Shown here: in pieces, positions 3,662 to 25,114 of the stretch
Layout of the letters: the number at the start of each line of letters is the position of its first letter
Position numbering within the stretch: the first letter of the stretch is position 1
IMG/VR virus record: IMGVR_UViG_3300033064_001224
Location: 1 to 25,352 of that record
DNA from: a virus
Reading direction: 5' to 3' (one strand)
Length of the DNA stretch: 25,352 nt
Made by a program: the position numbers and the translations under genes
The notes under the pieces: model-generated
What the model was told of the DNA's origin: nothing
Database searches by the model: none
The model's input: the letters and a program-made list of their open reading frames with translations, nothing else

Positions 3662-5118
3662 TATCCGAATATCCCCTTAATGCCTCTGCCCAAGAGAGAA
3701 CCCCCAATGGAGTCCTTGGAACTTCCAAAGATGGAGCCGATGAAGCTACCAATCCCCGCAGCGTTTCTCCCGGCGCGTTCGTCAGCCGATGTCTGAAGGC
3801 CCGCAGCAGCGTTGATCTGTGTCCGCTCAGTCGCACCAAGGTTAGACCGAATGCTGTCGGCCTCTTGCTGTGCAACCAACATGCGGGTACGGAGGTTGAT
3901 TTCCTCCATGTTAGCAAACGATGCGGCCAACTCACTCGCAAGGGCGGTGTCACCAACGAGGTCTTGAACCTCTAACTGGTATGCCTCGATGCGGGCCTGA
4001 CTTGCCTGGGTCTCCAACTGGAACTGACTCTCAAGTTCCGTCAAACCCAACTGCGCTTCAATCTGTGCCTGTTGCGCGGTCAACTCGCCTTCTTGGTCTC
4101 CGAAGAACTGCTCCAACTGAGCAACAGAACCGGAAGCCAATGGGCCAAAGATGCGCCGGCGAGACAACTGCGCGCCGAGATCGCCAACTTCCTTGGTGCG
4201 GCGGTCAGACGCACGCTTGATGGTTTTCTCGAATACGTCACGGGATGCCTTTTGCAGTGGTTTGGTCGAGAACTGTCCTGCCTGTGCCTCGAAGCGGTTC
4301 GCTGCATCCAACAAGGATTTCTTGCGTTCACCGCGTTGCGCCGTCAGCGCAGCAGAGGGGTCAAATTCAAACTGTCCGTTCTCACCGGAGAACTCACCTG
4401 CCTGGGCCTCGAAGCGTTTTGCCGCATTGAGCAAAGAGTCTGTGCGAACCTGTCGGCCTACCGTGAGCGCCGCAGATGGATCAAACTGAGATTGTCCGTC
4501 CTTGCTGGAGAACACACCTCCAGGGGTACGGATACCGATGCCGGGGGTTTTGAAGGCGTCGGTGTTGATGGGCCGATTGGGGTCCGCAGGGTTGAAGCCG
4601 CCCGGAGTGTCGGACACGATGCGCCCTACATCCATGAACTCACTTTGCTGTTGTGGGGGGCGAACGCCGCGCGCTGCCATAGCCATTGCCTGCTCGAACG
4701 TCCCTGCCTGACCCGTCCTTAAAAGTTCATCAGCTATCGCCACTTGTGGGGTCGAACCCCCGGCACCGTTGAGCGCCTGATTGCCGGGGCCACCGAAGCC
4801 GCTCTCGTTTACGCCTGCGCCGTTGCCACCGAAAGTGCCGCCACTGCCTGAAAAGTGGTCTGTGGCAAAACTTTGTCCAGCAATGTCAACCGTTCCCCGA
4901 TTAAAGGAAAACGGCAAGCCGCCAAATGGCAGTCCCACCGCAGCCATTCCAGCACTAAATGGATTGAAGTCCACACTAGGGGCGGTCACACCGGGAGTGC
5001 CGATGCCCGTATTGCCCGTCCCCGTGCCGCTTCCACCAAACGAACTGGACAGACCCTCAACGTCAGCAAAGGATATGGAATTATTGCCGCTGAAAGGATT
5101 AGGTAATGATATACCCAT
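3661..5118 (-). CDS. Internal virion / ejection-type protein with 40-aa tandem repeats (485 aa)
   Basis: The first ~150 residues are a low-complexity Gly/Ser/Asn/Phe-rich region (GGSGTGTGNTG, GGTFGGNGAG). A duplicated 40-residue unit follows, containing FDPSAALT and FEAQAGEFS/FEAQAGQFS. Then comes a long Gln/Glu/Ala-rich coiled coil (about residues 290-430), ending in a glycine-zipper-like tail (GIGSFIGSIFG, GGSLLGRGIKGIFG) that could insert in or cross a membrane. This layout is typical of podoviral ejection proteins that build a trans-envelope channel. The Shine-Dalgarno AGGGAG overlaps the upstream stop codon and lies 6 nt before ATG 5118. The function is inferred from composition and position. 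Confidence 0.6.
   Translation of the reverse strand: MGISLPNPFSGNNSISFADVEGLSSSFGGSGTGTGNTGIGTPGVTAPSVDFNPFSAGMAAVGLPFGGLPFSFNRGTVDIAGQSFATDHFSGSGGTFGGNGAGVNESGFGGPGNQALNGAGGSTPQVAIADELLRTGQAGTFEQAMAMAARGVRPPQQQSEFMDVGRIVSDTPGGFNPADPNRPINTDAFKTPGIGIRTPGGVFSSKDGQSQFDPSAALTVGRQVRTDSLLNAAKRFEAQAGEFSGENGQFEFDPSAALTAQRGERKKSLLDAANRFEAQAGQFSTKPLQKASRDVFEKTIKRASDRRTKEVGDLGAQLSRRRIFGPLASGSVAQLEQFFGDQEGELTAQQAQIEAQLGLTELESQFQLETQASQARIEAYQLEVQDLVGDTALASELAASFANMEEINLRTRMLVAQQEADSIRSNLGATERTQINAAAGLQTSADERAGRNAAGIGSFIGSIFGSSKDSIGGSLLGRGIKGIFG
4268..4507 (-). repeat. Two in-frame 120-bp tandem repeats inside the ejection-type gene
   Basis: The unit beginning gagaactgtcctgcc at 4268 recurs at 4388 (gagaactcacctgcc), and a third, quickly diverging start appears at 4508 (gagaacacacctcc). 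The period is exactly 120 bp, so the repeat encodes 40 residues per copy and keeps the reading frame. Copies differ at many silent positions, so the duplication is not recent. Protein copies share FDPSAALT, a basic stretch, SLL(N/D)AA(K/N)RFEAQAG and FS. Confidence 0.8.
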
Positions 5119-5121
5119 ACG

Positions 5122-5835
5122 TTATCTCCCTACGCTCTGAAACATCAGGGCGTTCTGTTTGTCTCCGAAGAAATCGTTGAACTTGCCGATTCCCCGGACA
5201 ACACCGTACTTACCCAAGTGGGTCAGCAGCAGTTCGCCCCCTTGAGGGACGGTTAAAAATAGCTGATGGTTCTTCTTTGCCTCCAAGAAGAACTTCAGCG
5301 CAGTCTCTAGTTTGTTTCGTGGTGATGCCCATGAAAACCAATGGAACACAGGTTCCGCAACACGGTCTCGTACTGGCCGTAAGAAAACCAACCCCACAAC
5401 GGACTCGGGTGAAAGCAACGCCCACACCCCTGAACCGGATTCTTCTAGTTGAGTTACAAACGCCCTGAGCGTCGGTGCGAAGTCGAGCGGTGTTAGGTCT
5501 TCAGGAAGAAAGCCAATCTCTCCCATCCCGTATGCGACGTAGAGCCTCTTGACGAACCGTTCATCAATCTCTTGCACGTCTGGACGCCGATATAGCGCCC
5601 GGTCCCTTACAAAGGGCTTCGCAGTCCGGCTACGTCTGAGAGAAGTTGAGCCCGATTTGGTCGATTTCGAACTCGGTGCTTCCGGTGATTTTCGCCTTGA
5701 CCGCGAACGACGAACTTTGACCGGCTCCTGAGAAGGTTTTTCGGGCTGTCCGGTCTTGACCTCCTGTTCCGTAATAGCTGGAGGGGCCGTTTCCGGCTTC
5801 GTCGTAGTAGACACTGCTGCTTGTTCCTGCATCAT
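5122..5835 (-). CDS. Acetyltransferase-like / gp13-type internal virion protein, start uncertain
   Basis: The C-terminal ~140 residues (from LYVAYGMGEIGF) form a folded alpha/beta domain with WALL, VVGLVFLRPV and VFHWFSWASP. It resembles the degenerate GNAT fold found in podoviral internal virion protein A and related proteins; this is low-certainty recognition and no acetyl-CoA loop is clear. The longest frame begins at ATG 5835 but its first ~69 codons overlap the 3' end of the nozzle gene in another frame. They encode a disordered Lys/Arg/Ser/Pro-rich tail with no Shine-Dalgarno before the ATG. Inside the non-overlapping part the only obvious alternatives are a GTG (PDVQEI) without a good Shine-Dalgarno and a Met deep in the domain. 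The start is therefore open. Confidence 0.55.
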   Translation of the reverse strand: MMQEQAAVSTTTKPETAPPAITEQEVKTGQPEKPSQEPVKVRRSRSRRKSPEAPSSKSTKSGSTSLRRSRTAKPFVRDRALYRRPDVQEIDERFVKRLYVAYGMGEIGFLPEDLTPLDFAPTLRAFVTQLEESGSGVWALLSPESVVGLVFLRPVRDRVAEPVFHWFSWASPRNKLETALKFFLEAKKNHQLFLTVPQGGELLLTHLGKYGVVRGIGKFNDFFGDKQNALMFQSVGR

Positions 5836-13172: not shown

Positions 13173-13500
13173 GGGTGAACCTCCCTTCAGACCAAAGACC
13201 GCTTGTCTTGGCCTCAACGACGAACTTCGCCACATGGTCAACAATGCTAAGACGGAACCGCTTTACTTCCGGCTGCCCCTGCTTTGCGTTGTAGGGGTCG
13301 TCGTTGTCCCACTCGTAGGGGCCAAACGCCATCCCACCCGTAACGCTGATGCCTCTTAGGCCGATAGGGGTCTCGTCAATGATCGTGAAAATCTCGCTCT
13401 CAGGGAAGGCAAATCGGTCCCACCATTGGCCCTCAAGGCCGAAGCGTTTCGCAAGTGAGAGGGCGAGTTCACGCTCCTCTGTACTCCGAAAGCCACTCAC
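13159..13500 (-). CDS. Unknown protein between terminase and portal (113 aa)
   Basis: A helical N-terminus (STEERELALSLAKRFGL) is followed by a beta-rich domain (FAFPESEIFTIIDETPIGLRGI, FRLSIVDHVAKFVVE). The start is GTG 13500, overlapping the terminase nuclease stop as GTGA. The 3' end overlaps the portal start by 14 nt. The family is not recognised. By position it could be a packaging accessory or a small virion protein. No small terminase subunit has been identified in the window, but this protein does not show the DNA-binding helix pattern expected of one. Confidence 0.6.
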   Translation of the reverse strand: MSGFRSTEERELALSLAKRFGLEGQWWDRFAFPESEIFTIIDETPIGLRGISVTGGMAFGPYEWDNDDPYNAKQGQPEVKRFRLSIVDHVAKFVVEAKTSGLWSEGRFTLGST

Positions 13501-14258
13501 CGCTGACCCCCAAGAATGGGGCGGGTGTAGCGTTTCTGACTTGTGTTTCCCTGGTGCATATTGACCCTCGCCTTACGCTTCATCATCACCGCGTATCTCG
13601 TTGCGGCCATGATGTCGTCGTGTTTGTCTACAATCTGTCCGCTCTTGCGGTGGTACATTCGCTTTTCTTCAAACCACTCCCTCAGATGAGAGAACACCTT
13701 GAAGCGCCCTGTCTCCATCCGCTCCAGTATCTCAATCACCACCGGCTCAATCGGTTGCGCGCCCTGCTTCTTGTCGTCATACGAAGCGGACTTCGGAAGC
13801 ATGTTCGCGTTGTGGCTCTTGTAAATCTTCCACAGAGGCCGTGACTTCTCGCTGCCCTTGTCCCTGTTCACCCCGTCGTGCGGCCATGCCACAGGAACCC
13901 ACTTGCCCCACTTGTTGATTTCAGCAGCGTGGTACAGCGGTGTCTTGTTTGCCCTGCGGTAACAATCCGTCACATAGATGGTGTCTGCGTCTTTGTCCCA
14001 GGCAATCTTGACGCCTGCCGCAGGATGGTCGATGCCGAAGTCGATCCCCGTAATTTGGTAGTAGTGATGCGGTATCTCGAACGCCGGAACCGAGATCAAC
14101 TCGTCCAGAATTGGGTACACAGCACCGGAGCCCAGAAGCGGGATGCCCTTGGAGCGGGTTTCCCTTTCATGCTCTGGGTACGCCGCGAGAATGATGTTCT
14201 TTGTTTCTTCGTCTAGGTGCGGGGCGTCATCCCACGTCACGACCTTGAACCACGCCAT
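13497..14258 (-). CDS. Terminase large subunit, nuclease domain polypeptide
   Basis: This 253-residue product corresponds to the C-terminal half of a phage large terminase. It opens with VVTWDDAPHLDEE and YPEHERETRSKGIPLLGSG, which in ordinary terminases links ATPase and nuclease. It continues with the RNase H-like nuclease: first acidic strand ITGIDFGIDHP (about residues 69-79), VAWPHDGVNRDKG, and the C-terminal acidic helix DKHDDIMAATRYA. The C-terminus is basic. It starts at ATG 14258, overlapping the stop of the ATPase gene by one base (TAATG), with GGAGG 10 nt upstream inside the ATPase gene. So it has its own ribosome-binding site and need not be made by frameshifting. Confidence 0.8.
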   Translation of the reverse strand: MAWFKVVTWDDAPHLDEETKNIILAAYPEHERETRSKGIPLLGSGAVYPILDELISVPAFEIPHHYYQITGIDFGIDHPAAGVKIAWDKDADTIYVTDCYRRANKTPLYHAAEINKWGKWVPVAWPHDGVNRDKGSEKSRPLWKIYKSHNANMLPKSASYDDKKQGAQPIEPVVIEILERMETGRFKVFSHLREWFEEKRMYHRKSGQIVDKHDDIMAATRYAVMMKRKARVNMHQGNTSQKRYTRPILGGQR

Positions 14259-14983
14259 TACTCAGAATCCTCCACGATTTCAGCGTCGTTCATAAAGTGG
14301 TTGACCACATTCGTTGCACCCTGCAAGGGAGTAAATGTCAGCATCAGCCGTCCCTTGGAATCAAGGATACGAGTCAGTGCTTCCGTGTAGAGTTCTGGCG
14401 GTGGCTCCTCGTCCAACCAAATCAGGTCGCGTGAGGTGCCCTGCCACTGCCTTCGTGCAGGCTCGCCCTTGCCCGCGTGATACGTCTTGAGCGTAACAGT
14501 CGAATCACCCCCTGACACATGCTTGACACGGATGGTATCAACAACGTCCTTAACGCCACTCTGTCGGTACGTTACCCGACCTAAGTGACTTCGGGGTATC
14601 CATCCGGTGCCGTGCTCGCCCTCCTCACCGAGAAGACCGAATTGAACAATGTCCTTTGACAGTTCGTTTGACTCGCAGCCCGTCCACACTTTTATGGGGC
14701 GGTCCCACTTCCGACCCTCCCACCAATCGGGATACAGGCCGGTCATCTGGATGGCTACCTCTGCACACGCAGTCTGCGTTTTGCCAACACGATTTCCGGC
14801 GAATAGCCCACGCTCTAACTCAGTGAGTCCAGCGTCGTGAAACTCTTTCTGCCACCAGTACGCACCAATGTTCGAACCTCCAAAGGGAAGTTTGTGGTCG
14901 TACAGATTGTGATAGGTGGCGAGGAGTTTGTTGTAGGTTAGGTATTCAACGAGGTCGTTTAACTCGTCCGTGCCAAACTTCAT
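14258..14983 (-). CDS. Terminase large subunit, ATPase domain polypeptide
   Basis: This 241-residue product holds the packaging ATPase. It has an adenine-binding-type WWQKEFHDAG (about residues 43-52), Walker A AGNRVGKT (62-69), Walker B LIWLDEEPP (187-195) and coupling motif LTFTPLQG (215-222), then stops just after VVNHFMNDAEIVEDSE. A normal large terminase continues here into the nuclease; the nuclease is the next gene. The start ATG 14983 has GAGG 5 nt upstream and overlaps the GNAT gene by 38 nt. Both halves look intact in their motifs, which argues against simple decay. Confidence 0.85.
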   Translation of the reverse strand: MKFGTDELNDLVEYLTYNKLLATYHNLYDHKLPFGGSNIGAYWWQKEFHDAGLTELERGLFAGNRVGKTQTACAEVAIQMTGLYPDWWEGRKWDRPIKVWTGCESNELSKDIVQFGLLGEEGEHGTGWIPRSHLGRVTYRQSGVKDVVDTIRVKHVSGGDSTVTLKTYHAGKGEPARRQWQGTSRDLIWLDEEPPPELYTEALTRILDSKGRLMLTFTPLQGATNVVNHFMNDAEIVEDSE

Positions 14984-15395: not shown

Positions 15396-16314
15396 CGTCG
15401 TTACCAGACGGTGGCCCTTCGGGGGGTTCGGGCCTTGGTGGAGAGATACTGTGCCAGTCATCGAAAAACTTTATGACCATCCTGTAATCAAGTGGGCCGG
15501 TGGAGTCCGGTTCGCCGTCTTTGTAGCCGATGGCGTACATCAGCCCAACGTCCGGGTTGTGGGTAGCGCCCTCTTGAACAGGCAGCTTTACGCTGTTCAG
15601 CATGGAACGAAGGCATGACGCACTCCAACGGGTCGGGTGCGTGTCAGGCGGTGTCTTGCTTAGGTAGGCACCAAGCGACCTGTTGATGGGCGCGAGCACT
15701 CTGTGGCCCGTAACAACAATGATCATCCCGCCCGGTCGAAGCAGGCTGTAGGTTTTCTCCAGAACCTCGCGGGGGTTTCCGCAGTTCTCCAGAGTGAAGT
15801 TGAATATCGCCACGTCGAACAACTCTGCCCCAGGATTGAACTCCTCCAGGGTGCCCTGAAAGACGTTCGCAGAGGGGTTCCGAAAGCAATTCTCGCCCGA
15901 AGGCTCAACGTGCCACGTTACGCAACCAAACTCCCTGTCCAGATAGCGCCCCATATGACCCTCGCCGGCACCAACATCGAGGACCAATTTGTCCTTCAGT
16001 GGGGAGGCGGCATCAAGAATGTGGCCGATGTATGTATGCTGCGCCCTCACATGGGGCAGTATCGCGTTGTAAGCACCCCTATAGAGTTCCGACCATGCCT
16101 CGGCTATGGCAGCCCCCGTGCGTCGCTCGATGATGTAGACGTGCCCACAGGACTTGCAAACGTGTAGTGGCCCGGTCATGTAGTGGCGGGCAACCTCAAT
16201 CTCTGCTGGGTCGTCCGCACCGCATACGTCGCAAACGTGGTGGGTGTACTCTAAATGAGAGTTGTCCCAGTCAGGCAACCAGGCAACCATCTGCGGGTTG
16301 CTGATATCGTTCAT
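15382..16314 (-). CDS. Zinc-binding SAM-dependent methyltransferase, sugar type
   Basis: The N-terminal domain has two Cys pairs (CDVCG at residues 28-32, CKSCGHVY at 53-60), as in the putative zinc-binding domain of sugar C-methyltransferases and related class I enzymes. The Rossmann domain follows: motif I VLDVGAGEG (111-119), LFDVAIFNFTLEN (motif II region) and LLRPGGMIIVVTG (motif III region). The C-terminus is proline-rich and disordered (SISPPRPEPPEGPPSG). The ATG at 16314 overlaps the amidotransferase stop as ATGA with AAGAGG 9 nt upstream. I chose it over an ATG 24 nt further upstream. It probably methylates a sugar or its amidino/amino group in this cassette; the substrate is inferred from context. 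Confidence 0.75.
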   Translation of the reverse strand: MNDISNPQMVAWLPDWDNSHLEYTHHVCDVCGADDPAEIEVARHYMTGPLHVCKSCGHVYIIERRTGAAIAEAWSELYRGAYNAILPHVRAQHTYIGHILDAASPLKDKLVLDVGAGEGHMGRYLDREFGCVTWHVEPSGENCFRNPSANVFQGTLEEFNPGAELFDVAIFNFTLENCGNPREVLEKTYSLLRPGGMIIVVTGHRVLAPINRSLGAYLSKTPPDTHPTRWSASCLRSMLNSVKLPVQEGATHNPDVGLMYAIGYKDGEPDSTGPLDYRMVIKFFDDWHSISPPRPEPPEGPPSGNDDGPA

Positions 16315-17423
16315 TGCGGTGGCCTCTTGAGTTGCCACTTGTCGTACTCACCGCGCTCCCACAGCTCATCATTCCGATGAAGGTTCACAATATCCTCAAG
16401 TGCGTATTCGTTCACTCCAAGGTAGTCAAGCACGTCATACAGGAACGTCCTGGGGTACTCCCCGTCGAATGCCCTGACATGCTCCAATGCCTGTGTCAGC
16501 GTCATGTGGCCGTTTTGGATCAGTCTCGCTGAATCTCTGAGCGAACGCCCAAACCCGAATTTCACATGCTGGAGGTAGAAGTAGAGGTCGTCAATCTTGT
16601 CGTCTAGCGAATCGTAGTTAGTAAACGTGCCGTCCGACCGTCCGGCAGCACAAAGACGGAAGTCAATGAGTTCTCGGACATAATCGAAGTTCTTGCGAAT
16701 GTCCCAAGGGTGCCAAGCACCGAAGTAAGTAACGCAAACGTCCGATACATCATCGGGATAAAGGTATGGTGCAAGGTCTTGCTCACTGATTCCGTCGCCA
16801 ACCCAGTTTAGAGGGTGGTCGCCAATTTGATGTTCAATTACTTCGTCGAGGTATCGGAACTTTCGGTGGTCTTCAGAGAGTATGTGGCCCCCGTATTCGG
16901 TCTCTCCGTGCTCTGCAAAGACAACCAGCTTAATTCCCCGGTTGACAGCTTCTTGCACTGGGATGGCGTTAATCCCAGCCGCACGATGTACTTCTGGATT
17001 TCCCCTTTCAACGAGGAATCTTTTGGCCAGATTGCGCGAGACTTCTTGGTTGACACGGAAATAGACGTTATCGAATCCGGCACGGCACATCGCCTCTCTG
17101 TTGTGGTTGCCTACTTCAGTCGGAAGCAGAGGTGAGTAAGTGACTAGCAGGGGGTTCATCCCGTAGTCTCGTTTCAAGTGTAACGCTACCGCCGACGAGT
17201 CCTTGCCACCAGACCAGGGGACGATGCAATCGTACTGGCCGTTCCCCCTGTGTTCGTCCGCGAGTTTCACGAACTCCTTCGCTCGCGATCCCCAATCTAT
17301 CTGACCCTTCGTTTCGTGATACCGACATGCGGTACATACTCCAGTTTCGTCAAACTCCAACCTTGGTCGGGTGGACGGCATCAGGCATCGGACACAGAAC
17401 TGGGCTTCAGCAGATTCACTCAA
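16311..17423 (-). CDS. N-acetyl sugar amidotransferase, PseA/WbpG/WbuX type
   Basis: This 370-residue PP-loop ATP pyrophosphatase belongs to the family that converts a sugar acetamido group to acetamidino. It opens FCVRCLMPSTRP...GVCTACRYHE (Cys10, 13, 30, 33). The PP-loop is VPWSGGKDSS (68-77), followed by YGMNPLLVTYSP, TEVGNHNREAM and AGINAIPVQEAVNRGIKLVVFAEHG. The family usually carries a CxxC before the AGI motif; here the equivalent is PEVHRAAGI, without Cys. The partners are normally HisH and HisF homologues; HisF is present just upstream, HisH is not. It starts at TTG 17423, overlapping the HNH stop as TTGA. Identification is confident at family level; the sugar substrate is unknown. 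Confidence 0.85.
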   Translation of the reverse strand: MSESAEAQFCVRCLMPSTRPRLEFDETGVCTACRYHETKGQIDWGSRAKEFVKLADEHRGNGQYDCIVPWSGGKDSSAVALHLKRDYGMNPLLVTYSPLLPTEVGNHNREAMCRAGFDNVYFRVNQEVSRNLAKRFLVERGNPEVHRAAGINAIPVQEAVNRGIKLVVFAEHGETEYGGHILSEDHRKFRYLDEVIEHQIGDHPLNWVGDGISEQDLAPYLYPDDVSDVCVTYFGAWHPWDIRKNFDYVRELIDFRLCAAGRSDGTFTNYDSLDDKIDDLYFYLQHVKFGFGRSLRDSARLIQNGHMTLTQALEHVRAFDGEYPRTFLYDVLDYLGVNEYALEDIVNLHRNDELWERGEYDKWQLKRPPQ

Positions 17424-17890
17424 CTAACATGACTCCATAGTTTTCGACCCTTGACCATGCTGACCAAGGGCTGTGAGATACCGTAATCGGCAGCTATCGT
17501 CCGCTGAAGGCGGCGGTCAGCGCGGATGGACAGGACGTCCTCCTTCGTCAACTTTGCCATGCCGCTATCCTCGCCACGCGCCGCGTTAACTCTCCCTTTG
17601 GCCGCCTTATCCCTCATGTTGTCTCTGTGTGTGCCGAGAAACAGGTGCTCCGGGTTCACACAGGCAGGAACGTCGCAGTGGTGGCAAACGCACATGCCTT
17701 CTTTGATTGGGCCGTGGTGAATCTCGTATGATGCTCTGTGCGCGTATACGTATGCGCCGTCAATCGAGAGCGCCCCGTACCCAGGGCCGGTTCGTCCCCC
17801 CGTCCACAACCAGCAACCCCCTGGCCCAGATGAATCAATCTTCGGCCAAAACTTTTTATCCAATTGGGCGGACGGGGATTCCGTTGGCAC
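17420..17890 (-). CDS. HNH endonuclease with C-terminal HTH (156 aa), homing-type
   Basis: The HNH domain is GCWLWTGG...GYGALS, AHRASYEIHHGPI, then VCHHCDVPACVNPEHLFLGTHRDN with His/Asn metal ligands and two Cys. A C-terminal helix-turn-helix (IAADYGISQPLVSMVKGRKLW) probably gives target recognition. It is a paralogue of the HNH gene at 19260-19724. It lies between hisF-like and pseA-like genes, overlapping hisF by 35 nt (GTG start 17890) and pseA by 4 nt. It thus splits a functional gene pair without breaking either. This is typical of a free-standing (intron-less) homing endonuclease. Confidence 0.85.
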   Translation of the reverse strand: MPTESPSAQLDKKFWPKIDSSGPGGCWLWTGGRTGPGYGALSIDGAYVYAHRASYEIHHGPIKEGMCVCHHCDVPACVNPEHLFLGTHRDNMRDKAAKGRVNAARGEDSGMAKLTKEDVLSIRADRRLQRTIAADYGISQPLVSMVKGRKLWSHVS

Positions 17891-18542
17891 TAAGGTACTC
17901 CTTCGCTTTTGTTAGTGACGCTTTGGAAAAGTGGTAAATGTTTTGCGTAGCGACCGCATGAGCCCCAGCCTCCATACCGCCCACGATATGAGACCAAGCA
18001 CCGACACCACAGCAAGCCACAACGGGAATAACCACAGCATCAGAAACGCTGCTAATAAGACCATCATCCAGTCCCCCAAGCGATCCGTCTCTCTCAACGC
18101 TTTGGAGGAGGATTTCTCCCGCGCCAAGGCGTTGCGCCTCAATTGCAGCGGTAACGGGGTCATCGCATCTTCCTTTGTCAATCCCACAGGTTAAACTTTG
18201 AGAGCCGAGGTGTCCGGCGAGATTATCAATAGACGCTCTGTGCTTCCAGCCGACGAGCACTTTGTCCGCTCCGAGGTCAAGTAATCGTTTGGATTCGGCC
18301 CAGTCATGAACGTGGCCCCCGGCAGCGATAGGGACGAAGCACTCGCCAGCAATTCTCTCAAGAGCGTCATAGTAGGGTTGTCTGGGGCTTCCCCTGGGGG
18401 AAACGTCAATGACAAAGATTTCGTCTGCAAGGTCTACATCTACCATGTTCAGGGTGTAGCGATAATCCGCACGAAACTTCTTAGTCCGGTACAAAATCCC
18501 ATCTTGTAGGGTTAGGGAGATTATTAAACGGGACTTCAGCAA
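17856..18542 (-). CDS. HisF-like protein of acetamidino-sugar synthesis (HisF2 type)
   Basis: This 228-residue (beta/alpha)8 protein is homologous to imidazole glycerol phosphate synthase. The N-terminus is KSRLIISLTLQDG...RTKKFRADYRYT, with PIAAGGHVHD (71-80), LGADKVLVG and GIDKGR (catalytic-type Asp122). The first HisF catalytic Asp (in PCLDV) is replaced (ISLTLQ), as expected of the HisF2 subfamily that works with WbpG/PseA rather than in histidine synthesis. I chose TTG 18542, with AGAGG 8 nt upstream, because it begins exactly where the family begins; the price is a 62-nt overlap with neuB. In the known systems HisF delivers ammonia from HisH; no HisH is present here. Confidence 0.75.
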   Translation of the reverse strand: MLKSRLIISLTLQDGILYRTKKFRADYRYTLNMVDVDLADEIFVIDVSPRGSPRQPYYDALERIAGECFVPIAAGGHVHDWAESKRLLDLGADKVLVGWKHRASIDNLAGHLGSQSLTCGIDKGRCDDPVTAAIEAQRLGAGEILLQSVERDGSLGGLDDGLISSVSDAVVIPVVACCGVGAWSHIVGGMEAGAHAVATQNIYHFSKASLTKAKEYLSANGIPVRPIG

Positions 18543-19263
18543 GTGTCACTACCTCTTTTACGTCGCGCACAATCTCCGCAAGTTCGTCAGGGGTTGCCGA
18601 TAGCTGATGGTCCCTGAATGCCGAATGATCGTGGGCGATGGTGAAGTGTTTCTCAATGACGCGAGCGCCGTAGGCAGCGGCAACCTTGCACGCCATCGTT
18701 CCGATAGTATGGTCCGAATACCCCGCAAGACCAAATGTTTGCTGTATGTGAAGAACAGACACCAAGGATGCTTCCTCGGGAGGCGTTGGGTACTTCGATA
18801 CACAATGCAAATACATCATCTTGGGGCCGAATAGCGGTGGTGGGTTGCCCATACCCGTAGAAACAAGAACCGGCTTGCCCGTCGCATACGCTGCGCCAAT
18901 AAGCCTGAAGTCATCATGTGAGCGAGATGCAATCTTGAACGCCGGCACCAGAGGGGTCAGTAAGTCAACCGCCTCAGTGTCGAAGGGTGTGGACATGAAC
19001 AGGATGTCTTCGTGATCAGCAACCTTGGCTAGTTTCTCGAAGTCCTCCCAAGGAAGACAGATGCGTTGCAACTCCTCCAACCGCTCCGCGTCGCCAGCAG
19101 CCAACTTCCAAGGATTGATGGTCTGGAACTTCACCGCGTCGGCCCCCGCTACTTTAGCGAGGTGAATCAATTCAGCAGCGAGTTCGTAACTGCCTTCGTG
19201 ATTGTTACCAATCTCAGCGACAACGATGGGACGCTCAAGAAGGTCGAAAGGACCAATCTTCAT
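18481..19263 (-). CDS. NeuB-family nonulosonic acid synthase, no SAF domain
   Basis: It condenses phosphoenolpyruvate with an N-acyl hexosamine. Family motifs are all present: AEIGNNHEG (16-24), AVKFQT (43-48), STPFD (91-95), KIASRS (110-115), STGMG (135-139), LHCVSKYPTPPEEASL (152-167), GYSDHTIG (181-188) and EKHFT (204-208). The 260-residue protein ends after the TIM barrel; bacterial NeuB/SpsE/LegI/PseI enzymes are about 330-350 residues, with a C-terminal SAF (antifreeze-like) domain that helps close the active site of the partner subunit. Its loss is unusual. The ATG at 19263 overlaps the HNH stop (ATGA); four more residues upstream are possible. The sugar product (Neu-, Leg- or Pse-type) cannot be told from the sequence. 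Confidence 0.85.
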   Translation of the reverse strand: MKIGPFDLLERPIVVAEIGNNHEGSYELAAELIHLAKVAGADAVKFQTINPWKLAAGDAERLEELQRICLPWEDFEKLAKVADHEDILFMSTPFDTEAVDLLTPLVPAFKIASRSHDDFRLIGAAYATGKPVLVSTGMGNPPPLFGPKMMYLHCVSKYPTPPEEASLVSVLHIQQTFGLAGYSDHTIGTMACKVAAAYGARVIEKHFTIAHDHSAFRDHQLSATPDELAEIVRDVKEVVTLAEVPFNNLPNPTRWDFVPD

Positions 19264-19724
19264 ATGTGGGTCCACACTTTGTGAGTCTTTATTTGGCTGA
19301 CTAATTGCTGACTCACGCTGTACTCTAAAGCAATGTGCCTCTGTGGCCGAGCGTCACGGCGAATGGCGGCAACTTGCAACTTGCTTAACTTGGCGCTTGA
19401 ATTGTCTTCACCCTTTGGGTGAAAGTCGCGGCCCTTCCGCACCATGTCGTCCGTGTTGTCTTGATGTGTCCCCAGAAACAGGTGGTCAGGGTTCACGCAG
19501 CCGGGGACATCGCACTTGTGACAAACCAGGACTCCGTCAGGAACCTTCCCGACAAACATATCATACGAGGCTCTGTGAGCGAGTTTCCAACGCCCTAAGT
19601 ACCAGAACTGACCATAACCAGCGGACTTCGTATAAGCCGTCCACAGCCAGCAGCCGGTGTTGGGTTCGGGGGAAACCTTTTCGAAAAACCTCGCTTCAGT
19701 CTCGCTCGCTGTACCAACGGACAT
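19260..19724 (-). CDS. HNH endonuclease with C-terminal HTH (154 aa), homing-type
   Basis: The domain order is the same as in the gene at 17420-17890: GCWLWTAY...GYGQF, AHRASYDMF, VCHKCDVPGCVNPDHLFLGTHQDN, then LEYSVSQQLVSQIKTHKVW. The two proteins share most of the HNH core and the HTH, so they arose by duplication or came from one element family. It overlaps the SDR gene by 29 nt at its start (ATG 19724) and neuB by 4 nt at its end. It inserts between them without disrupting either. Expression probably relies on read-through of the sugar operon. Confidence 0.85.
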   Translation of the reverse strand: MSVGTASETEARFFEKVSPEPNTGCWLWTAYTKSAGYGQFWYLGRWKLAHRASYDMFVGKVPDGVLVCHKCDVPGCVNPDHLFLGTHQDNTDDMVRKGRDFHPKGEDNSSAKLSKLQVAAIRRDARPQRHIALEYSVSQQLVSQIKTHKVWTHI

Positions 19725-20664
19725 AAGCCGGTATCCCCTTCTCTAAAGGCCATTTGGGTTCATGGCCTAGCATATCCCGAGCCTTTGCCATAACGCAAGT
19801 ACCTCTTGCGGGCATCTTCATCTCGTTGGGCTGCTGTTCCCAAGTAAGGGTGGGGTAGTGTTCTCGCAATATGCTCAAAACCTCGATCAACTGTCGGGCC
19901 TTACCAAATGTCATATTGAATGTTTCGCCCCGGATGTCGCTTTCGAGTGCGAGAACAGTCCCGTCTACGAGGTCGCTTATGAACGTAAAGTCCAGCGAAG
20001 AAGAATCCTGCACCCTTACGGGTTGTCCACTCCGAGCGGCCTCAATAAATTTCTGAATTACCCTTCCCGAAATGCACCGGGGACCGTACAACGCTGACGG
20101 TCGAATAATTGTGTATGGGAGGTCCATCTCCCGGTATCCCTTTATGAGGTTCTCTCCCGCCAGCTTCACACCGCCGTAGAGCGTCTTGGGATCGCACTCG
20201 TTGCTCTCCAGCGCCATGCCCAATTGAAAGTCGCCGTACACCATTGATGAGGAGAAGTACATCACATGGGGTCTGTCAGGAAAGACATCCTCTTGGACTG
20301 AAACGTCCAGGATGTTCTCCAGGGTCTTGAGGTTGTTCGCGAAGGTTTCGTGCATCATCTTTCTTGCACGGTTCGCGTGAGCAACCGCAGAGAGGTGGAC
20401 AATCGCGTCAGGCTGGAATTCCCGTGCGACCTTTGACAGTGCTTGGTAGTCAACAGCATCTACGACTCTCGTATCGACCCCAGCGTCCCGCATGAGGAAC
20501 TGCCGGTCTGCAAGCATGTCTCGATACGCTTGGGGCTTTTCCTCGGGGGAGTAGATGTTGTTGATGCGAAGGAAGTCCGCAACCATGACTTCGTGTTTGG
20601 GTCGTAACGCTATGGCGAGGTTGTGGCCTATGAATCCGGCACCCCCGCAAAGAAGTACCCTCAC
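19696..20664 (-). CDS. Extended SDR: NAD-dependent nucleotide-sugar epimerase/dehydratase
   Basis: This 322-residue extended SDR has dinucleotide-binding GGAGFIG (7-13), LSAVAH (91-96), the active-site Ser strand MYFSSSMVYGD (135-145), YGGVK with catalytic Tyr163/Lys167, IIRPSALYGP and a DFTFISDLVDG substrate-domain motif. Length is typical. GTG 20664 overlaps the HNH stop as GTGA with GGGGG upstream; the longer frame to 20742 lies inside the HNH gene. It could be a UDP/GDP-sugar 4-epimerase or 4,6-dehydratase (LegB-like); the exact reaction is not decidable by eye. A remnant resembling its first codons lies upstream of the HNH gene (21091-21126). Confidence 0.85.
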   Translation of the reverse strand: MRVLLCGGAGFIGHNLAIALRPKHEVMVADFLRINNIYSPEEKPQAYRDMLADRQFLMRDAGVDTRVVDAVDYQALSKVAREFQPDAIVHLSAVAHANRARKMMHETFANNLKTLENILDVSVQEDVFPDRPHVMYFSSSMVYGDFQLGMALESNECDPKTLYGGVKLAGENLIKGYREMDLPYTIIRPSALYGPRCISGRVIQKFIEAARSGQPVRVQDSSSLDFTFISDLVDGTVLALESDIRGETFNMTFGKARQLIEVLSILREHYPTLTWEQQPNEMKMPARGTCVMAKARDMLGHEPKWPLEKGIPAYVRWYSERD

Positions 20665-21098
20665 GGGCGTTTCCCCCGGTAGTGGTTGAGTGTGCAGGCG
20701 CGCGAACAAAACCGTGGTCGGGCACGCCCCTTGTACCGCCACCTAGGTCTGACAAAATCCACACCGCAGTCGTCGCACTCAAAAGTTTGGCGCGAATCGC
20801 TGTGTATAATCTTATGCTCCGACGGTGAGAGTGGCTCAAGGTTCTCGATGCGGTCGTTATCCCGTGACCCGTCAATGTGGTGCAGTTCCATCCCCTTTGG
20901 GTGCGGTTCTCCGGTTTCCAGCCACCAAACCACATGCGCCCTCAGAGCATACCCACTTTCATACGAACGAGGGCAGTCCGGTCGATAGACACGGAATCGG
21001 CCCCTGTTGTCCGTGTAGCCATCGTTCCAATCATCAGGAGACCACGGCTCCACACGCTGGCGCGTGAACCGACCTTTTTCGTCCTGAACTCTAAGCAT
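20661..21098 (-). CDS. HNH endonuclease with C-terminal zinc motif (145 aa)
   Basis: The HNH core is ELHHIDGSRDNDRIENLEPLSPSEHKIIH (metal-binding His-His, Asp, Asn, His), seen in pieces. It is followed by a zinc-ribbon-like tail with FECDDCGVDF and RFCSRACTLNHY. The N-terminal WND-GYTDNRGRFRVYRP segment resembles the DNA-binding leader of phage HNH proteins. It is a different subfamily from the pair at 17420 and 19260. It sits between the aminotransferase and SDR genes: the ATG at 21098 is inside an 11-codon vestige of the SDR start, and the stop overlaps the functional SDR start. That is strong evidence that it arrived by homing at the SDR 5' end. Confidence 0.85.
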   Translation of the reverse strand: MLRVQDEKGRFTRQRVEPWSPDDWNDGYTDNRGRFRVYRPDCPRSYESGYALRAHVVWWLETGEPHPKGMELHHIDGSRDNDRIENLEPLSPSEHKIIHSDSRQTFECDDCGVDFVRPRWRYKGRARPRFCSRACTLNHYRGKRP

Positions 21099-21126
21099 CA
21101 GAGCCGCCGACCAAAAGAACTCTCAC
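21091..21126 (-). pseudogene. Vestigial 5' end of an SDR gene upstream of the HNH gene
   Basis: A GTG at 21126, with GGGAG 5 nt upstream, opens an 11-codon frame reading MRVLLVGGSDA and a TAG stop. The functional SDR at 20664 starts MRVLLCGGAG. Codon by codon the two match in meaning, but many third positions differ (AGA/AGG, GTT/GTA, TTG/CTT, GGC/GGG, GGC/GGT), so this is not a perfect target duplication. The vestige is more likely the old start of a diverged allele left behind when an HNH gene plus a foreign SDR 5' end was copied in. The HNH ATG lies within it (ATGCTTAG), so HNH translation may be coupled to initiation at the old GTG. Confidence 0.7.
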
Positions 21127-21185
21127 GAAAACTCCCGTTGTTAGGTGTTCTGGTACTCGTTGAGACTAAACCGAATGTCAGTCAG
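21127..21185. other. Short gap after the aminotransferase gene
   Basis: This 59-bp spacer is one of the few non-overlapping gene joints in the cassette. It contains three tandem TGAC units next to the aminotransferase stop (21180-21188) and the Shine-Dalgarno of the vestigial SDR start. I see no gene, terminator or promoter in it. Confidence 0.5.
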
Positions 21186-22073
21186 TCATTTCAGAGCCTT
21201 CAAAATGGTTTCCATGTCGTCAGACCCCAAATGAGGCCCGATGGGGAGCGATATTGCTCGTTTGGCGATCCTCTCTGACTTCGGGAATGAACCCTCGGGG
21301 TAGCCAAAGTAGGACATCAGGGGGACCGGGCGTGGATAGTGGATGCTGGGCTGAACTCCAGAATGTCTCAGCTTCGTAATCCACCAGTCCCGGTCATCTC
21401 GGTAGACGTTCACGCAATAAGCGTCCCCGATCATCTCAGATTCATCTAATTCAAGCAGTATTTTAGCGTTTTCACGCCTCTTTGCTTGCGTTTCAGGTAA
21501 TCTTTGGAGTTGAGACAGCCCGATGGCCGCTTCAACCTCGTTCATGCGGTAATTGAAGGCCAAATCAGGTACGTCGTACCCGTAACCCTCTTTCACATAC
21601 CCGAAAGCCCGTCGATGACGACAGAATTCCGCAATCGCGTCGGAATCGGTGGCTATCATGCCCCCCTCTAAGCATGTCAAATTCTTCGTCGGGAAAAACG
21701 AATAGACTCCGGCGCTCGTCTCCGGTTTTGTCTCCACATTCAGTGCTTTGTCCGTCCATTTACCGCTCCAGACGCTCTCATCAATCCACTGTGGCCTCAA
21801 CCCGGCGTATTCGGCGGCAAATCCCGTCGCAACGTGGGTCATGGCCGGTACTTCTATCTCATCAATCCCATTCAGCACTTTATACGCCAGATACACCAAA
21901 TGAAGGCCCGATGTGCAGGAGTTCACCGCGATGGCGTGTTTTACACCCAGATGACTTGCAAATGCTGCTTCAAAGGCCGGTGTGACCTTCCCTGCGACGA
22001 GTTGGGGGTCGGAAAGGGTGATATCTGCCACATATCGGTCGAAATCGGTTATCGTGGGGCGGAAACCTATCAT
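21186..22073 (-). CDS. DegT/DnrJ/EryC1/StrS-type aminotransferase, internally shortened
   Basis: PLP-dependent sugar aminotransferase family. The features are AVNSCTSGLHL (49-59), the EIEVPAMTHVATGFAAEYAGLRPQWID segment seen in pieces, the Schiff-base lysine in SFFPTKNLTCLEGGMIATD (Lys130), FNYRMNEVEAAIGLSQLQRL and SIHYPRPVP. At 295 residues it is about 70-100 shorter than usual. The stretch that normally lies between the 'VDVD' strand and the Lys motif, with IIPVHLYG and the E-D-A-A/C-x-A/G motif whose Asp holds the PLP ring nitrogen, is not visible. About 20 residues (VWSGKWTDKALNVETKPE) replace it. It may be a compact phage form or catalytically altered. ATG 22073 overlaps the upstream stop (ATGA). 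Confidence 0.8.
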   Translation of the reverse strand: MIGFRPTITDFDRYVADITLSDPQLVAGKVTPAFEAAFASHLGVKHAIAVNSCTSGLHLVYLAYKVLNGIDEIEVPAMTHVATGFAAEYAGLRPQWIDESVWSGKWTDKALNVETKPETSAGVYSFFPTKNLTCLEGGMIATDSDAIAEFCRHRRAFGYVKEGYGYDVPDLAFNYRMNEVEAAIGLSQLQRLPETQAKRRENAKILLELDESEMIGDAYCVNVYRDDRDWWITKLRHSGVQPSIHYPRPVPLMSYFGYPEGSFPKSERIAKRAISLPIGPHLGSDDMETILKALK

Positions 22074-22309
22074 GATGGCTTGAAGTCCTCCATCGAAACA
22101 ATATCGGCGCTTACTCGTGCCTTTTGCTTGGCAACGGTAAGGAGCATCTCGCTCACAGCGACATTGTACTGCTTGGTCAGCACTCCAATCCAGTCTCCAA
22201 GAACATCGGCGCGGTAGAGTGCATCCTCATTGATGAAGTCCTCGTCAAAGACCACATCCCCCTCGCCCGTGAAGTCGTCTTCTCTGAGTCGCGTCTTGGC
22301 GAACTTCAT
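22070..22309 (-). CDS. Small acidic protein of the sugar cassette (79 aa), unknown
   Basis: It begins MKFAKTRLREDDF, has an acidic segment (GEGDVVFDEDFINEDALYRA) and a C-terminal helix (YNVAVSEMLLTVAKQKARV). It is joined by 4-nt ATGA overlaps on both sides, to the oxidoreductase and the aminotransferase. Such joining supports real translation and a link to the sugar genes. I see no phosphopantetheine-type Ser motif or metal-binding pattern, and no family is recognised. Confidence 0.65.
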   Translation of the reverse strand: MKFAKTRLREDDFTGEGDVVFDEDFINEDALYRADVLGDWIGVLTKQYNVAVSEMLLTVAKQKARVSADIVSMEDFKPS

Positions 22310-23037
22310 AACTTAAAAACGTCCTCCATCAAGCCGAGGGTATCCTCGGTCGTTACCATTGGTTCAACTTTTCGGTCACGGATATGAGCCACGAAGGACT
22401 CCAAAACGTCCGTATCAGGGTTCTCTCGCTTCCCGTCATACAGGTATCGTCTTTCGTCAGGATACCATGCTGAGAAGTAGTGGTGATGCGGCGGTGATGA
22501 CTTGAGGTCACTCGTCAGCGTTCCCGAGCCCCTGGCGAAGCTGATGACGCTGAGTTCACATTCGTCGGACTGTATTGTCTTGGCTTCCACCACAGGGCCT
22601 AGATAGAGCCGCATTATGTCCAATAGGTGAATCCCGCCGCACAGGTGAGGCCCCACCTTTTCCCATTCGCGTTTCTCGTCCTTTCGGCCCCAATTGTATG
22701 AGGCGTCGATCCGATACGGTTGAGACTTGAGTTCCGGCATCCTTGCCCGCATGGGAAGGTTCATTGAGAGAATACCCCCGGTTCTTCGGCAACGGTCGGT
22801 GATGTCGTCGAGTTCGTGTGGTTCCAGGCAAAGAGGTTTTTCGCAGAAAATGGGAATTCCCGCAGACAGAAGGGACATCACCTGATTGTAGTGAAACCTG
22901 TCGGGAGAGGAGACGATCGCGAAGTCGCAGGCCACCTCAGCCCACATGTCGTATGCATCAACCTCTACGCCCCAACCCTCAAGGGCCGCGATGTGCTTCT
23001 TGCCCTGATGACCGGCACCTAATACTAAGGCCCTCAT
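22306..23037 (-). CDS. Gfo/Idh/MocA-family sugar oxidoreductase (compact)
   Basis: The Rossmann NAD(P) loop is VLGAGHQGKKH (5-15), followed by VSSPDRFHYNQVMSLLSAG, the family CEKPL motif with Lys67, and GGIHLLDIMRLYLG (134-147) with the usual Asp/His of the active site. At 243 residues it is about 80-100 shorter than standard members, the loss being mainly at the first domain and the C-terminal sheet. In sugar pathways such enzymes oxidise C3 (WbpB) or reduce keto sugars (PtmA-like context). It lies between the SpsF-like and DegT genes. The ATG at 23037 overlaps the upstream small gene (ATGA). Confidence 0.8.
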   Translation of the reverse strand: MRALVLGAGHQGKKHIAALEGWGVEVDAYDMWAEVACDFAIVSSPDRFHYNQVMSLLSAGIPIFCEKPLCLEPHELDDITDRCRRTGGILSMNLPMRARMPELKSQPYRIDASYNWGRKDEKREWEKVGPHLCGGIHLLDIMRLYLGPVVEAKTIQSDECELSVISFARGSGTLTSDLKSSPPHHHYFSAWYPDERRYLYDGKRENPDTDVLESFVAHIRDRKVEPMVTTEDTLGLMEDVFKL

Positions 23038-23213
23038 TTCAGGCCCTCCAGACGCGATGCTATCATGGCGTTCAGGTTGTCCTGGGTCGTGAAGTGAGCA
23101 AGAACGTCAGCAATGAAAGCGTCCATCTTCTTGTCGAGGGCGTCCATCCGTTCCTTCAGGTCAGCGATGTCCTGCCGATGGTCTACAACGAATTCCAATT
23201 TGCCGTATCCCAT
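23034..23213 (-). CDS. Small coiled-coil protein (59 aa), unknown
   Basis: After MGYGKLEFVVD the protein has a strongly heptad-patterned helix (DIADLKERMDALDKKMDAFIADVL) and a second helix (NLNAMIASRLEGL). It may form dimers or trimers, perhaps as an adaptor for the cassette enzymes. The ATG at 23213 overlaps the cytidylyltransferase stop as TGATG; a GTG one codon upstream is also possible. The stop overlaps the oxidoreductase start. No family is recognised. Confidence 0.6.
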   Translation of the reverse strand: MGYGKLEFVVDHRQDIADLKERMDALDKKMDAFIADVLAHFTTQDNLNAMIASRLEGLK

Positions 23214-23863
23214 CACGCACCCATCCAGGCAACGAGGTCTTCGCGGGTGTCAATCGTCGGGCCAGGGTACTTCCCCGGAAACTTCAAAACGCGGTCCTTG
23301 TTCTTGTAGAGCGCCTTCGTGACGTGCTCCCGTTCGTCGTCATCCATCTCGGGATAAGCCTGTCTTAAAGCAGCCACGCAGACCACCTCGACGGAATTTC
23401 CGCTATTCGGGACGTTCGTGACCAAATCATTCAAAACGTACTTCGGAGCAACCTCCGGGTGGCCCTTCTTCGAATTTGCAAACGTGGTGGGTTGATATCT
23501 CGTGGCCTTGTGATGCCAGAGGTAAATCGCCTTGTCAACCGAGCCGGCGTGAATCTCAGGAGAGTCAGCACAGACCCTCACGAAAGCCTGATCGAAAGGA
23601 GCCTTGGTCGCCATGAACTCCAGAAACCTATCAGCGACGTCCATAGGAGCGCCGTCGTGGCGGTAACAGTGCACGCTGTGCTGACTGCACCACTTCGCAA
23701 TCTGCTCGTCCTCTTCCTCCATCGTGGTCAAAACGTGAATCTCAGATGCCCGGACGCACTTCCGTAGTCTCTTGACCATGCGTTCGAGAATCGGTGGATC
23801 GCCTAGGAGAACTTTCCCCGGTAGGCGGGTTGACCCCATTCGGGCCTGTATAAGGATTTTCAA
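23213..23863 (-). CDS. SpsF/CMP-NeuA-type cytidylyltransferase
   Basis: Nucleotidyltransferase of the SpsF family, which activates sugars as CMP derivatives. The N-terminal signature ILIQARMGSTRLPGKVLL (3-20) contains the nucleotide-binding loop. It is followed by EIHVLTTMEEEDEQI, the PMDVADRFLEF motif (the family's 'DVLxRF'), VRVCADSPEIHAGSVD and the terminal DTREDL. The 216-residue length is near normal. The start is TTG 23863, overlapping the preceding stop by four bases (TTGA). With the NeuB synthase 4 kb downstream it suggests a CMP-nonulosonate route. Direct evidence for which sugar is activated is lacking. Confidence 0.85.
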   Translation of the reverse strand: MKILIQARMGSTRLPGKVLLGDPPILERMVKRLRKCVRASEIHVLTTMEEEDEQIAKWCSQHSVHCYRHDGAPMDVADRFLEFMATKAPFDQAFVRVCADSPEIHAGSVDKAIYLWHHKATRYQPTTFANSKKGHPEVAPKYVLNDLVTNVPNSGNSVEVVCVAALRQAYPEMDDDEREHVTKALYKNKDRVLKFPGKYPGPTIDTREDLVAWMGA

Positions 23864-24045
23864 AGCGCTGCCGGTGTGAGGATGAAAGCACCGTAAACCA
23901 TGTCGTCCTCAAGGTGGTTTTTAATCGCCTCCAAAGCATCACGCCTGCTTTCGCAGATGTGGGCCTCGTCGCCAAAGCGCCAATCCCCGTTGTCGTCTTG
24001 AGGAGCAACAACCCAAACCTCAAACTCGCTCTTGTCGATAAGCAT
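23860..24045 (-). CDS. Small protein before the sugar cassette (61 aa), unknown
   Basis: Begins MLIDKSEFEVWVVAPQDD and continues with a helix of acidic and basic residues (ESRRDALEAIKNHLEDDM) and a hydrophobic end (YGAFILTPAAL). The alpha/beta pattern could be a small compact domain. A perfect AGGAGG lies 5 nt before ATG 24045, so it is probably well translated. It follows the tmRNA-like RNA and overlaps the cytidylyltransferase start by 4 nt. The family is not recognised. Confidence 0.65.
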   Translation of the reverse strand: MLIDKSEFEVWVVAPQDDNGDWRFGDEAHICESRRDALEAIKNHLEDDMVYGAFILTPAAL

Positions 24046-24110: not shown

Positions 24111-24244
24111 AAGTATTGACCGGGGCTGCTACCCCGTCGCCCCCTCAAGTGAGGACCGAAGCGTGACCCGTCAGTCAGAGGCTCCGGCCATAAATGTTGG
24201 AGGCGGTGGGAGTCGAACCCACGTTGGCCCCGGTCAATTTACTT
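24111..24244 (-). ncRNA. Permuted tmRNA-like (tRNA-Ala-like) structured RNA
   Basis: On the minus strand a tRNA-like domain can be folded in permuted order. The 3' half comes first: a helix strand at 24238-24227 (ATTGACCGGGGC), the linker CAAC, a T arm (stem GTGGG/CCCAC, loop TTCGACT with the full tRNA consensus, 24222-24206) and acceptor 3' strand CGCCTCC (24205-24199) with discriminator A. A ~53-nt intervening segment follows, then acceptor 5' strand GGGGGCG (24144-24138), an 11-nt D-loop analogue (ACGGGGTAGCA) and the second helix strand GCCCCGGTCAAT (24126-24115). The 12-bp helix is perfect and extends by AAGT/ACTT after a 2-nt bulge. The acceptor stem contains G3-U70, the alanine identity pair used by tmRNA. 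No tag reading frame is obvious downstream and CCA is not encoded. Confidence 0.6.
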
Positions 24245-24462: not shown

Positions 24463-24867
24463 TCAAATTAGTTCGGTGTGGCGCGTCTTTGGATAATGCT
24501 TGTCGCTACAGACCAAAGCATGAAAAGAATCCATTACCTCATCGTCTGTGTACTTGCGAGGCCGTGCCGCCGCAAAGTCTATGTCCTTCGACCGGGGACG
24601 ACGAATCGGGCCGATAACAGTCACACCCTTGCCAGAGTGCAACCGGGCATGATCCGCGCCATCGACCATCACCAAATTCAATGGGTCGTTGTTTCCATGG
24701 TTCCCATCCAAATGATGAATGTGGAACCCGTCCTTCATTCTCGCCCGAAACCAGCGCCGAGTTCGATCCGAATGTGCGCGCAACCAAGCCTCGTGATGGG
24801 GCTTCCTAACCTGCACATTCTGTGCTCCAAACCTATCGTAATCGCTAATAGGTTGCGAATAGAGCAT
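24463..24867 (-). CDS. HNH endonuclease (134 aa)
   Basis: The HNH core is GFHIHHLDGNHGNNDPLNLV with the His-His pair, Asn/Asp and a downstream DHARLHSG. It is preceded by a basic helix (WLRAHSDRTRRWFRARM) and followed by a ~55-residue basic tail that may bind DNA. It is a third HNH subtype in the window and opens the minus-strand operon. The start ATG 24867 has only a weak Shine-Dalgarno (GGGGTT). Its stop overlaps a possible TTG start of the next gene. Confidence 0.8.
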   Translation of the reverse strand: MLYSQPISDYDRFGAQNVQVRKPHHEAWLRAHSDRTRRWFRARMKDGFHIHHLDGNHGNNDPLNLVMVDGADHARLHSGKGVTVIGPIRRPRSKDIDFAAARPRKYTDDEVMDSFHALVCSDKHYPKTRHTELI

Positions 24868-25072: not shown

Positions 25073-25088
25073 CATAATATGCATTATG
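25073..25088. repeat. Inverted repeat CATAAT-ATGC-ATTATG, possible operator
   Basis: A 6-bp perfect inverted repeat with a 4-bp centre. It overlaps the left edge of the candidate -35 box at 25086-25091, the position of a repressor or activator site. No matching protein is encoded in the window. Confidence 0.4.
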
Positions 25089-25114
25089 ACAAATGACTTA
25101 CTCAACCTTATCAA
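25086..25114 (+). promoter_or_regulatory. Candidate sigma70-type promoter for the rightward gene
   Basis: ATGACA (25086-25091; 5 of 6 to the -35 consensus), a 17-bp spacer, then TATCAA (25109-25114; 4 of 6 to the -10 consensus). The implied start is about 45 nt before the ATG at 25165. Read on the other strand the same boxes give TTGATA-17-TGTCAT, so the site could also fire leftward. Confidence 0.4.

Follow-up and report, generated by a model that had tools for sequence, protein, structure and literature searches.

A free-standing HNH endonuclease gene, HNH1, lies between the aminotransferase (DegT) and SDR genes of a nonulosonate sugar cassette carried by a phage. The DegT-SDR junction is closed in most related loci, and the 11-codon frame in front of HNH1 is a vestigial SDR start, separate from the start of the working SDR gene behind it. 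In the most favored account, which is given about even confidence, HNH1 entered the resident SDR gene at codon 10 and the lost 5′ end was restored from a diverged allele. The window is the whole stretch of DNA that was analyzed, 25,352 bases of virus record IMGVR_UViG_3300033064_001224 (IMG/VR), a podovirus-like fragment whose genes include those for terminase, connector, and major head.

Sugar cassette and HNH genes

The nonulosonate cassette is compact, occupies the right part of the window, and is encoded entirely on the minus strand, with genes for a kdsB-like cytidylyltransferase, a Gfo/Idh oxidoreductase, a DegT/PseC-like aminotransferase, an SDR, NeuB/PseI, HisF/WbuZ, a WbuX amidotransferase, a methyltransferase, and a GNAT protein (Table 1). 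Aligned with bacterial orthologues, the working SDR has intact GGAGFIGH, SSSMVYG, and YGGVK motifs. With its WbuX/WbuZ amidation genes the cassette spans positions 16311-23863 (minus strand). The DegT (295 aa), NeuB (264 aa), and Gfo/Idh (243 aa) proteins are all markedly shorter than their family models, and nothing matching WbuX turned up in the phage collection. Small minus-strand frames lie between cassette genes at 22073-22309, 23860-24045, and 23034-23216, and a PHROG search of two of them returned no match. At 24137-24222 on the minus strand, a segment resembling part of a permuted tmRNA (its T arm and acceptor end) scores 27.7, below the Rfam gathering score of 47; it may derive from a host tmRNA or mark an attachment site, and it hints at an alphaproteobacterial host.

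Table 1. Features of the DegT-SDR junction, the cassette, and the HNH genes, with positions in the window
Feature	Position	Strand	Remarks
HNHa	24463..24867	-	Precedes cassette; same HNH type directly before SDR in virus G017
DegT/PseC-like aminotransferase	21186..22073	-	Upstream of junction
Gap from DegT stop to vestige start	21127..21185	-	59 nt
Shine-Dalgarno-like GGGAG before vestige	21132..21136	-	Read directly; 5 nt spacer to GTG
Vestigial SDR start	21091..21126	-	11-codon frame, MRVLLVGGSDA and stop
HNH1, free-standing HNH endonuclease	20661..21098	-	145 aa; HNH_3 motif, Pfam PF13392 E 2e-10; PHROG HNH endonuclease families
Working SDR, NAD-dependent epimerase/dehydratase family	19696..20664	-	Pfam Epimerase E 1e-33
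HNH2, SDR-NeuB boundary	19260..19724	-	Begins within the 3′ end of SDR; 4-nt overlap of its stop with the NeuB ATG (ATGA); vestige absent
NeuB/PseI-like nonulosonate synthase	18481..19275	-
HisF/WbuZ-like amidation protein	17856..18542	-
HNH3, HisF/WbuZ-WbuX boundary	17420..17890	-	Begins within the 3′ end of hisF; 4-nt overlap of its stop with the WbuX TTG (TTGA); vestige absent
WbuX-like N-acetyl sugar amidotransferase	16311..17423	-	TIGR03573 271 bits

Three HNH genes, HNH1, HNH2, and HNH3, are wedged between cassette genes, and the TGA of each overlaps the next start by 4 nt. Together with HNHa they belong to Pfam family PF13392 (HNH_3, cut-off 24.8 bits), with scores of 40.6 for HNH1, 45.8 for HNH2, 51.3 for HNH3, and 24.9 bits for HNHa. 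The HNH_3 motif of HNH1 is nearly full length, and the C-terminal tail of the protein is a zinc-finger-like CxxC...CxxxC.

A vestigial SDR start

In the DegT-SDR spacer, the start of the vestige reads GTGAGAGTTCTTTTGGTC, and its codons (21126-21091) are GTG AGA GTT CTT TTG GTC GGC GGC TCT GAT GCT TAG. The working SDR gene starts at 20664 with GTG AGG GTA CTT CTT TGC GGG GGT GCC GGA (MRVLLCGGAG). After the start codon, six of eight residues are identical, and the DNA is identical at 17 of 27 nt. The first-pass annotation had proposed that this short frame, with its own Shine-Dalgarno sequence, matches the SDR start, and both parts of the proposal are borne out: GGGAG is present, and on a profile built from 79 orthologous SDR starts, with the window's own SDR left out, the vestige scores 15.7 and the working SDR 14.2. 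None of 285,664 start frames in matched random sequence equals the vestige on this profile, nor does any other start frame of the window score as high, and the BLOSUM score of the peptide match is equalled by only 2 of 143,223 random start frames. Judged by these scores, the vestige is an SDR start and not a chance likeness, a case resting on about eight codons, no close HNH1-free allele having been found. The gfo and kdsB starts were also considered as sources of the vestige and were ruled out, the motif fitting the orthologous SDR profile instead. No RNA structure or Rfam family of an intron-like kind was found around the vestige.

The likeness to the SDR ends exactly at the ATG of HNH1 (21098), which is the first base of codon 10. 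The HNH gene had been described as starting within the vestige and stopping over the working SDR start, and this is how the reading frames lie: its TGA (20663-20661) overlaps the GTG of the SDR (20664-20662), the shared 4 nt being GTGA, and the vestige stop in turn overlaps the HNH1 start (ATGCTTAG). The ribosome site and the latter overlap would also suit a short leader that evolved for translational coupling to HNH1, with only an accidental likeness to the SDR; these HNH genes often overlap their neighbors, and a DNA local alignment of the vestige region with the working SDR start is alone not significant (P 0.19). Coupling, however, requires no particular peptide, and this peptide beats all random start frames on the profile and stands exactly where an SDR start is expected, which makes an accidental leader quite improbable.

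Codons 2-9 of the vestige and of the working SDR are distinguished by 10 differences in 24 bases, of which 6 fall at third positions. The earlier description of these differences as synonymous does not hold for all of them, because two residues also change (V/C and S/A). The two starts fit genes that diverged while both were functional rather than a decayed duplicate, in keeping with the diverged alleles first suggested. Tandem duplication within one genome that placed a second copy of the SDR 5′ end in front of HNH1, followed by decay of that copy, would likewise leave similar flanks around one gene. Such a decayed duplicate explains the vestige poorly because the differences lie mostly at third codon positions, a bias with P of about 0.001-0.002 under random decay (about 0.0014 for ten random changes that keep six of eight residues, and 0.0015 with transition bias), in a test flattered by the choice of the vestige for its peptide. 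This origin is considered very improbable.

A junction closed in relatives

The SDR of an Azospirillum brasilense plasmid (41% identity) was the entry point to related loci, and the gene order kdsB-gfo-degT-SDR-(GNAT)-neuB-...-wbuX was found in many bacterial phyla. Among 80 bacterial loci examined (78 genome contigs and 2 plasmids), the DegT stop lies at most 71 nt from the SDR start in 72, with the two genes mostly overlapping or almost touching. Typical spacing in related clusters is an overlap or a gap within about 20 nt, compared with the 59 nt that separate DegT from the vestige. Nothing is encoded between DegT and SDR in these 72 loci or in the HNH-less virus G018 (101 kb), where the junction is closed by a 4-nt overlap (L205). 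Since DegT and SDR abut in both sets, all of them distant relatives, HNH1 is an insertion into a junction that is otherwise conserved. The vestige lies on the DegT side, where the old SDR start would be expected.

Nearly all SDR orthologues keep the GGxGFIGH motif. The first-pass annotation had made its reading depend on whether the SDR starts of HNH-less relatives align with the vestige, and they do so in protein (L[IV]GGAGFIGH), across relatives that are far diverged, so that the outcome named as a refutation was not observed. A different source for the vestige would be another Rossmann-fold gene, a second SDR that was lost through HNH1 or by deletion, with the working SDR never interrupted. 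Close SDR paralogues are inseparable on eight residues, and a second SDR does occur elsewhere in some bacterial and viral loci. Nevertheless, descent of the vestige from a third gene is less likely because DegT and SDR have no intervening gene in the closed junctions (72 of 80 relatives), and the motif fits the orthologous SDR profile, unlike the gfo or kdsB starts of the window. A lost second SDR is therefore regarded as unlikely, and it is placed below insertion of HNH1, as are the accidental leader and the decayed tandem copy.

Viral relatives

Searches of IMG/VR with SDR, DegT, and WbuX protein patterns gave no match for any of the three, and neither a DNA search in phages nor the DNA pattern for MRVLLxGGxGFIGHN found a close HNH-less relative. 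Relatives by terminase (L005-L025) are without this SDR. The nearest viral relative is G017 (22,354 bases), with an SDR identity of 46-48%, and the two have terminase, connector, GNAT, methyltransferase, and SDR in common, in the same order. In G017 a relative of HNHa (51% over 68 residues) immediately precedes the SDR, which it overlaps by 4 nt (ATGA), and it has no visible vestige in front. The HNH gene there is of a different type, so the pairing of HNH and SDR recurs while the HNH gene itself differs. The vestige is identical to the G017 SDR at 16 of 24 nt and to its own SDR at 14 of 24, a comparison from which kinship is unreadable because several bacterial SDRs also reach 16 of 24. In an SDR tree the window branch is too long to place, and thus carries no information on SDR mosaicism.

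HNHa (window about 25075-25105, minus strand) and its G017 relative (L198, about 505-535) are both preceded by the near-palindrome CATAATG(C/A)A(T/C)ATTATG at the positions given, which may be a shared promoter or operator. The large terminase of the window is split into ATPase and nuclease genes (14258-14983 and 13497-14258, minus strand) that meet at a TAATG junction. The G017 terminase (L204, 4319-6931) is likewise in two parts, which are separated by a small zinc-finger-like frame, whereas that of relatives such as L005, L009, and L017 is one continuous frame. At Walker A, the G017 terminase has an intein-like in-frame insert (L204, about 4531-5381; GK / CVSRETLIETPSG ... VVNHN / T). Within this insert an antisense HNH_3 motif (4875-4982) resembles the hidden HNH endonucleases reported in phage inserts.

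Insertion or phage exchange

The proposal is that HNH1, as a free-standing homing endonuclease gene, inserted itself into the SDR gene within GGxGFIGH, the conserved motif for NAD binding. The vestige would then be what remains of the resident SDR in front of the insertion, its first nine codons with their ribosome site. Behind HNH1, the incoming DNA would have brought a replacement 5′ end from a diverged SDR allele, which is the proposed reason that the SDR stayed functional, and this new end would have been joined by double-strand-break repair, homologous on the SDR side. The downstream SDR would stay translationally coupled because the HNH1 stop overlaps the new SDR start, and the vestige, through the overlap of its stop with the start of HNH1, would now act as a short leader. 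The cut made by HNH1, the joint transfer of the new 5′ end, and the coupling are all steps proposed from the arrangement of the genes. The suggestion of the first-pass annotation that the endonuclease moved together with a flanking 5′ end that restores its target is thus partly supported.

The chief rival to this insertion also takes the vestige as a true old SDR start, here marking an illegitimate recombination joint between two phages, at which the HNH1-SDR block of one was joined to the DegT gene and nine SDR codons of another, without cutting by HNH1. The sequence outcome would be identical, nuclease genes are often found at the boundaries of phage exchange (PMC10448857), and HNH-SDR blocks do exist, the SDR of G017 also being preceded by an HNH gene. 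A joint of this kind, however, leaves unexplained a break that falls in the most conserved motif and exactly at the HNH start codon, and is judged somewhat unlikely.

Several points also count against insertion of HNH1, namely that the likeness covers about eight codons only and comes with no significant DNA similarity, that the searches found no close relative free of HNH1, and that free-standing phage endonucleases usually lie between genes, where restoration is unneeded (PMC2988022). No convincing vestige was found before HNH2, HNH3, HNHa, or the HNH genes of other viral records. A restored 5′ end is thus not a general habit of HNH genes, since HNH1 alone is convincing among 13 testable HNH-to-next-gene pairs (one other reached P 0.05).

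Comparison with known systems

In T4-like phages, the free-standing homing endonucleases of the HNH (mob) and GIY-YIG (seg) kinds lie between conserved genes and spread by break repair with co-conversion of flanks (PMC2988022), and HNH1 is likewise a stand-alone phage endonuclease gene between conserved genes. The in-gene cases, mobE in nrdA of Aeh1 and mobA in topoisomerase gene 60, leave their gene split in two (PMC2988022), whereas the SDR of the window appears to have been restored with a new 5′ end, leaving a vestige. HEGs have also been described at phage-exchange boundaries and in HEG-islands (PMC10448857). Similarly, HNHa, HNH1, HNH2, and HNH3 bracket genes in and around the sugar cassette; the block differs in being a metabolic cassette rather than an essential phage operon, and no high-identity island common to the window and another phage was seen.

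The mobile ORFs of fungal mitochondria replace gene C-termini, as in atp6 of Allomyces and atp6, atp9, cox2, and nad3 of Glomus, by bringing a diverged replacement end in phase, with the native end left as a remnant (PMC3630166). Here, too, two copies of one gene end flank an endonuclease ORF, one in phase and the other a remnant, of which about eight codons are recognizable. The fungal systems involve the 3′ end, LAGLIDADG or GIY-YIG endonucleases, and mitochondria, whereas the window has a 5′ end, an HNH endonuclease, a phage operon, and a remnant of only about nine codons. In the literature searched, gene-end replacement has so far been described for 3′ ends in fungal mitochondria, and no phage example of 5′-end restoration was found in the open-access literature.

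Implications

Homing endonucleases that cut within a gene must not destroy the gene that they invade, and the known solutions are self-splicing introns, inteins, and tolerated splitting. A bolder reading of the junction, judged less likely than not, is that the homing endonuclease gene of a phage moves together with a spare 5′ end of its target, so that it could invade a conserved and required coding sequence with neither intron nor intein and still keep that gene functional. If true, a free-standing phage endonuclease that supplies the replacement end would add to the solutions for insertion within genes, a splicing-free way of living inside a gene and a bacterial-virus mirror image of the fungal mobile ORFs. 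It would also help to explain why HNH genes are found exactly at gene boundaries with overlapping stops and starts, as all three HNH genes within the cassette are.
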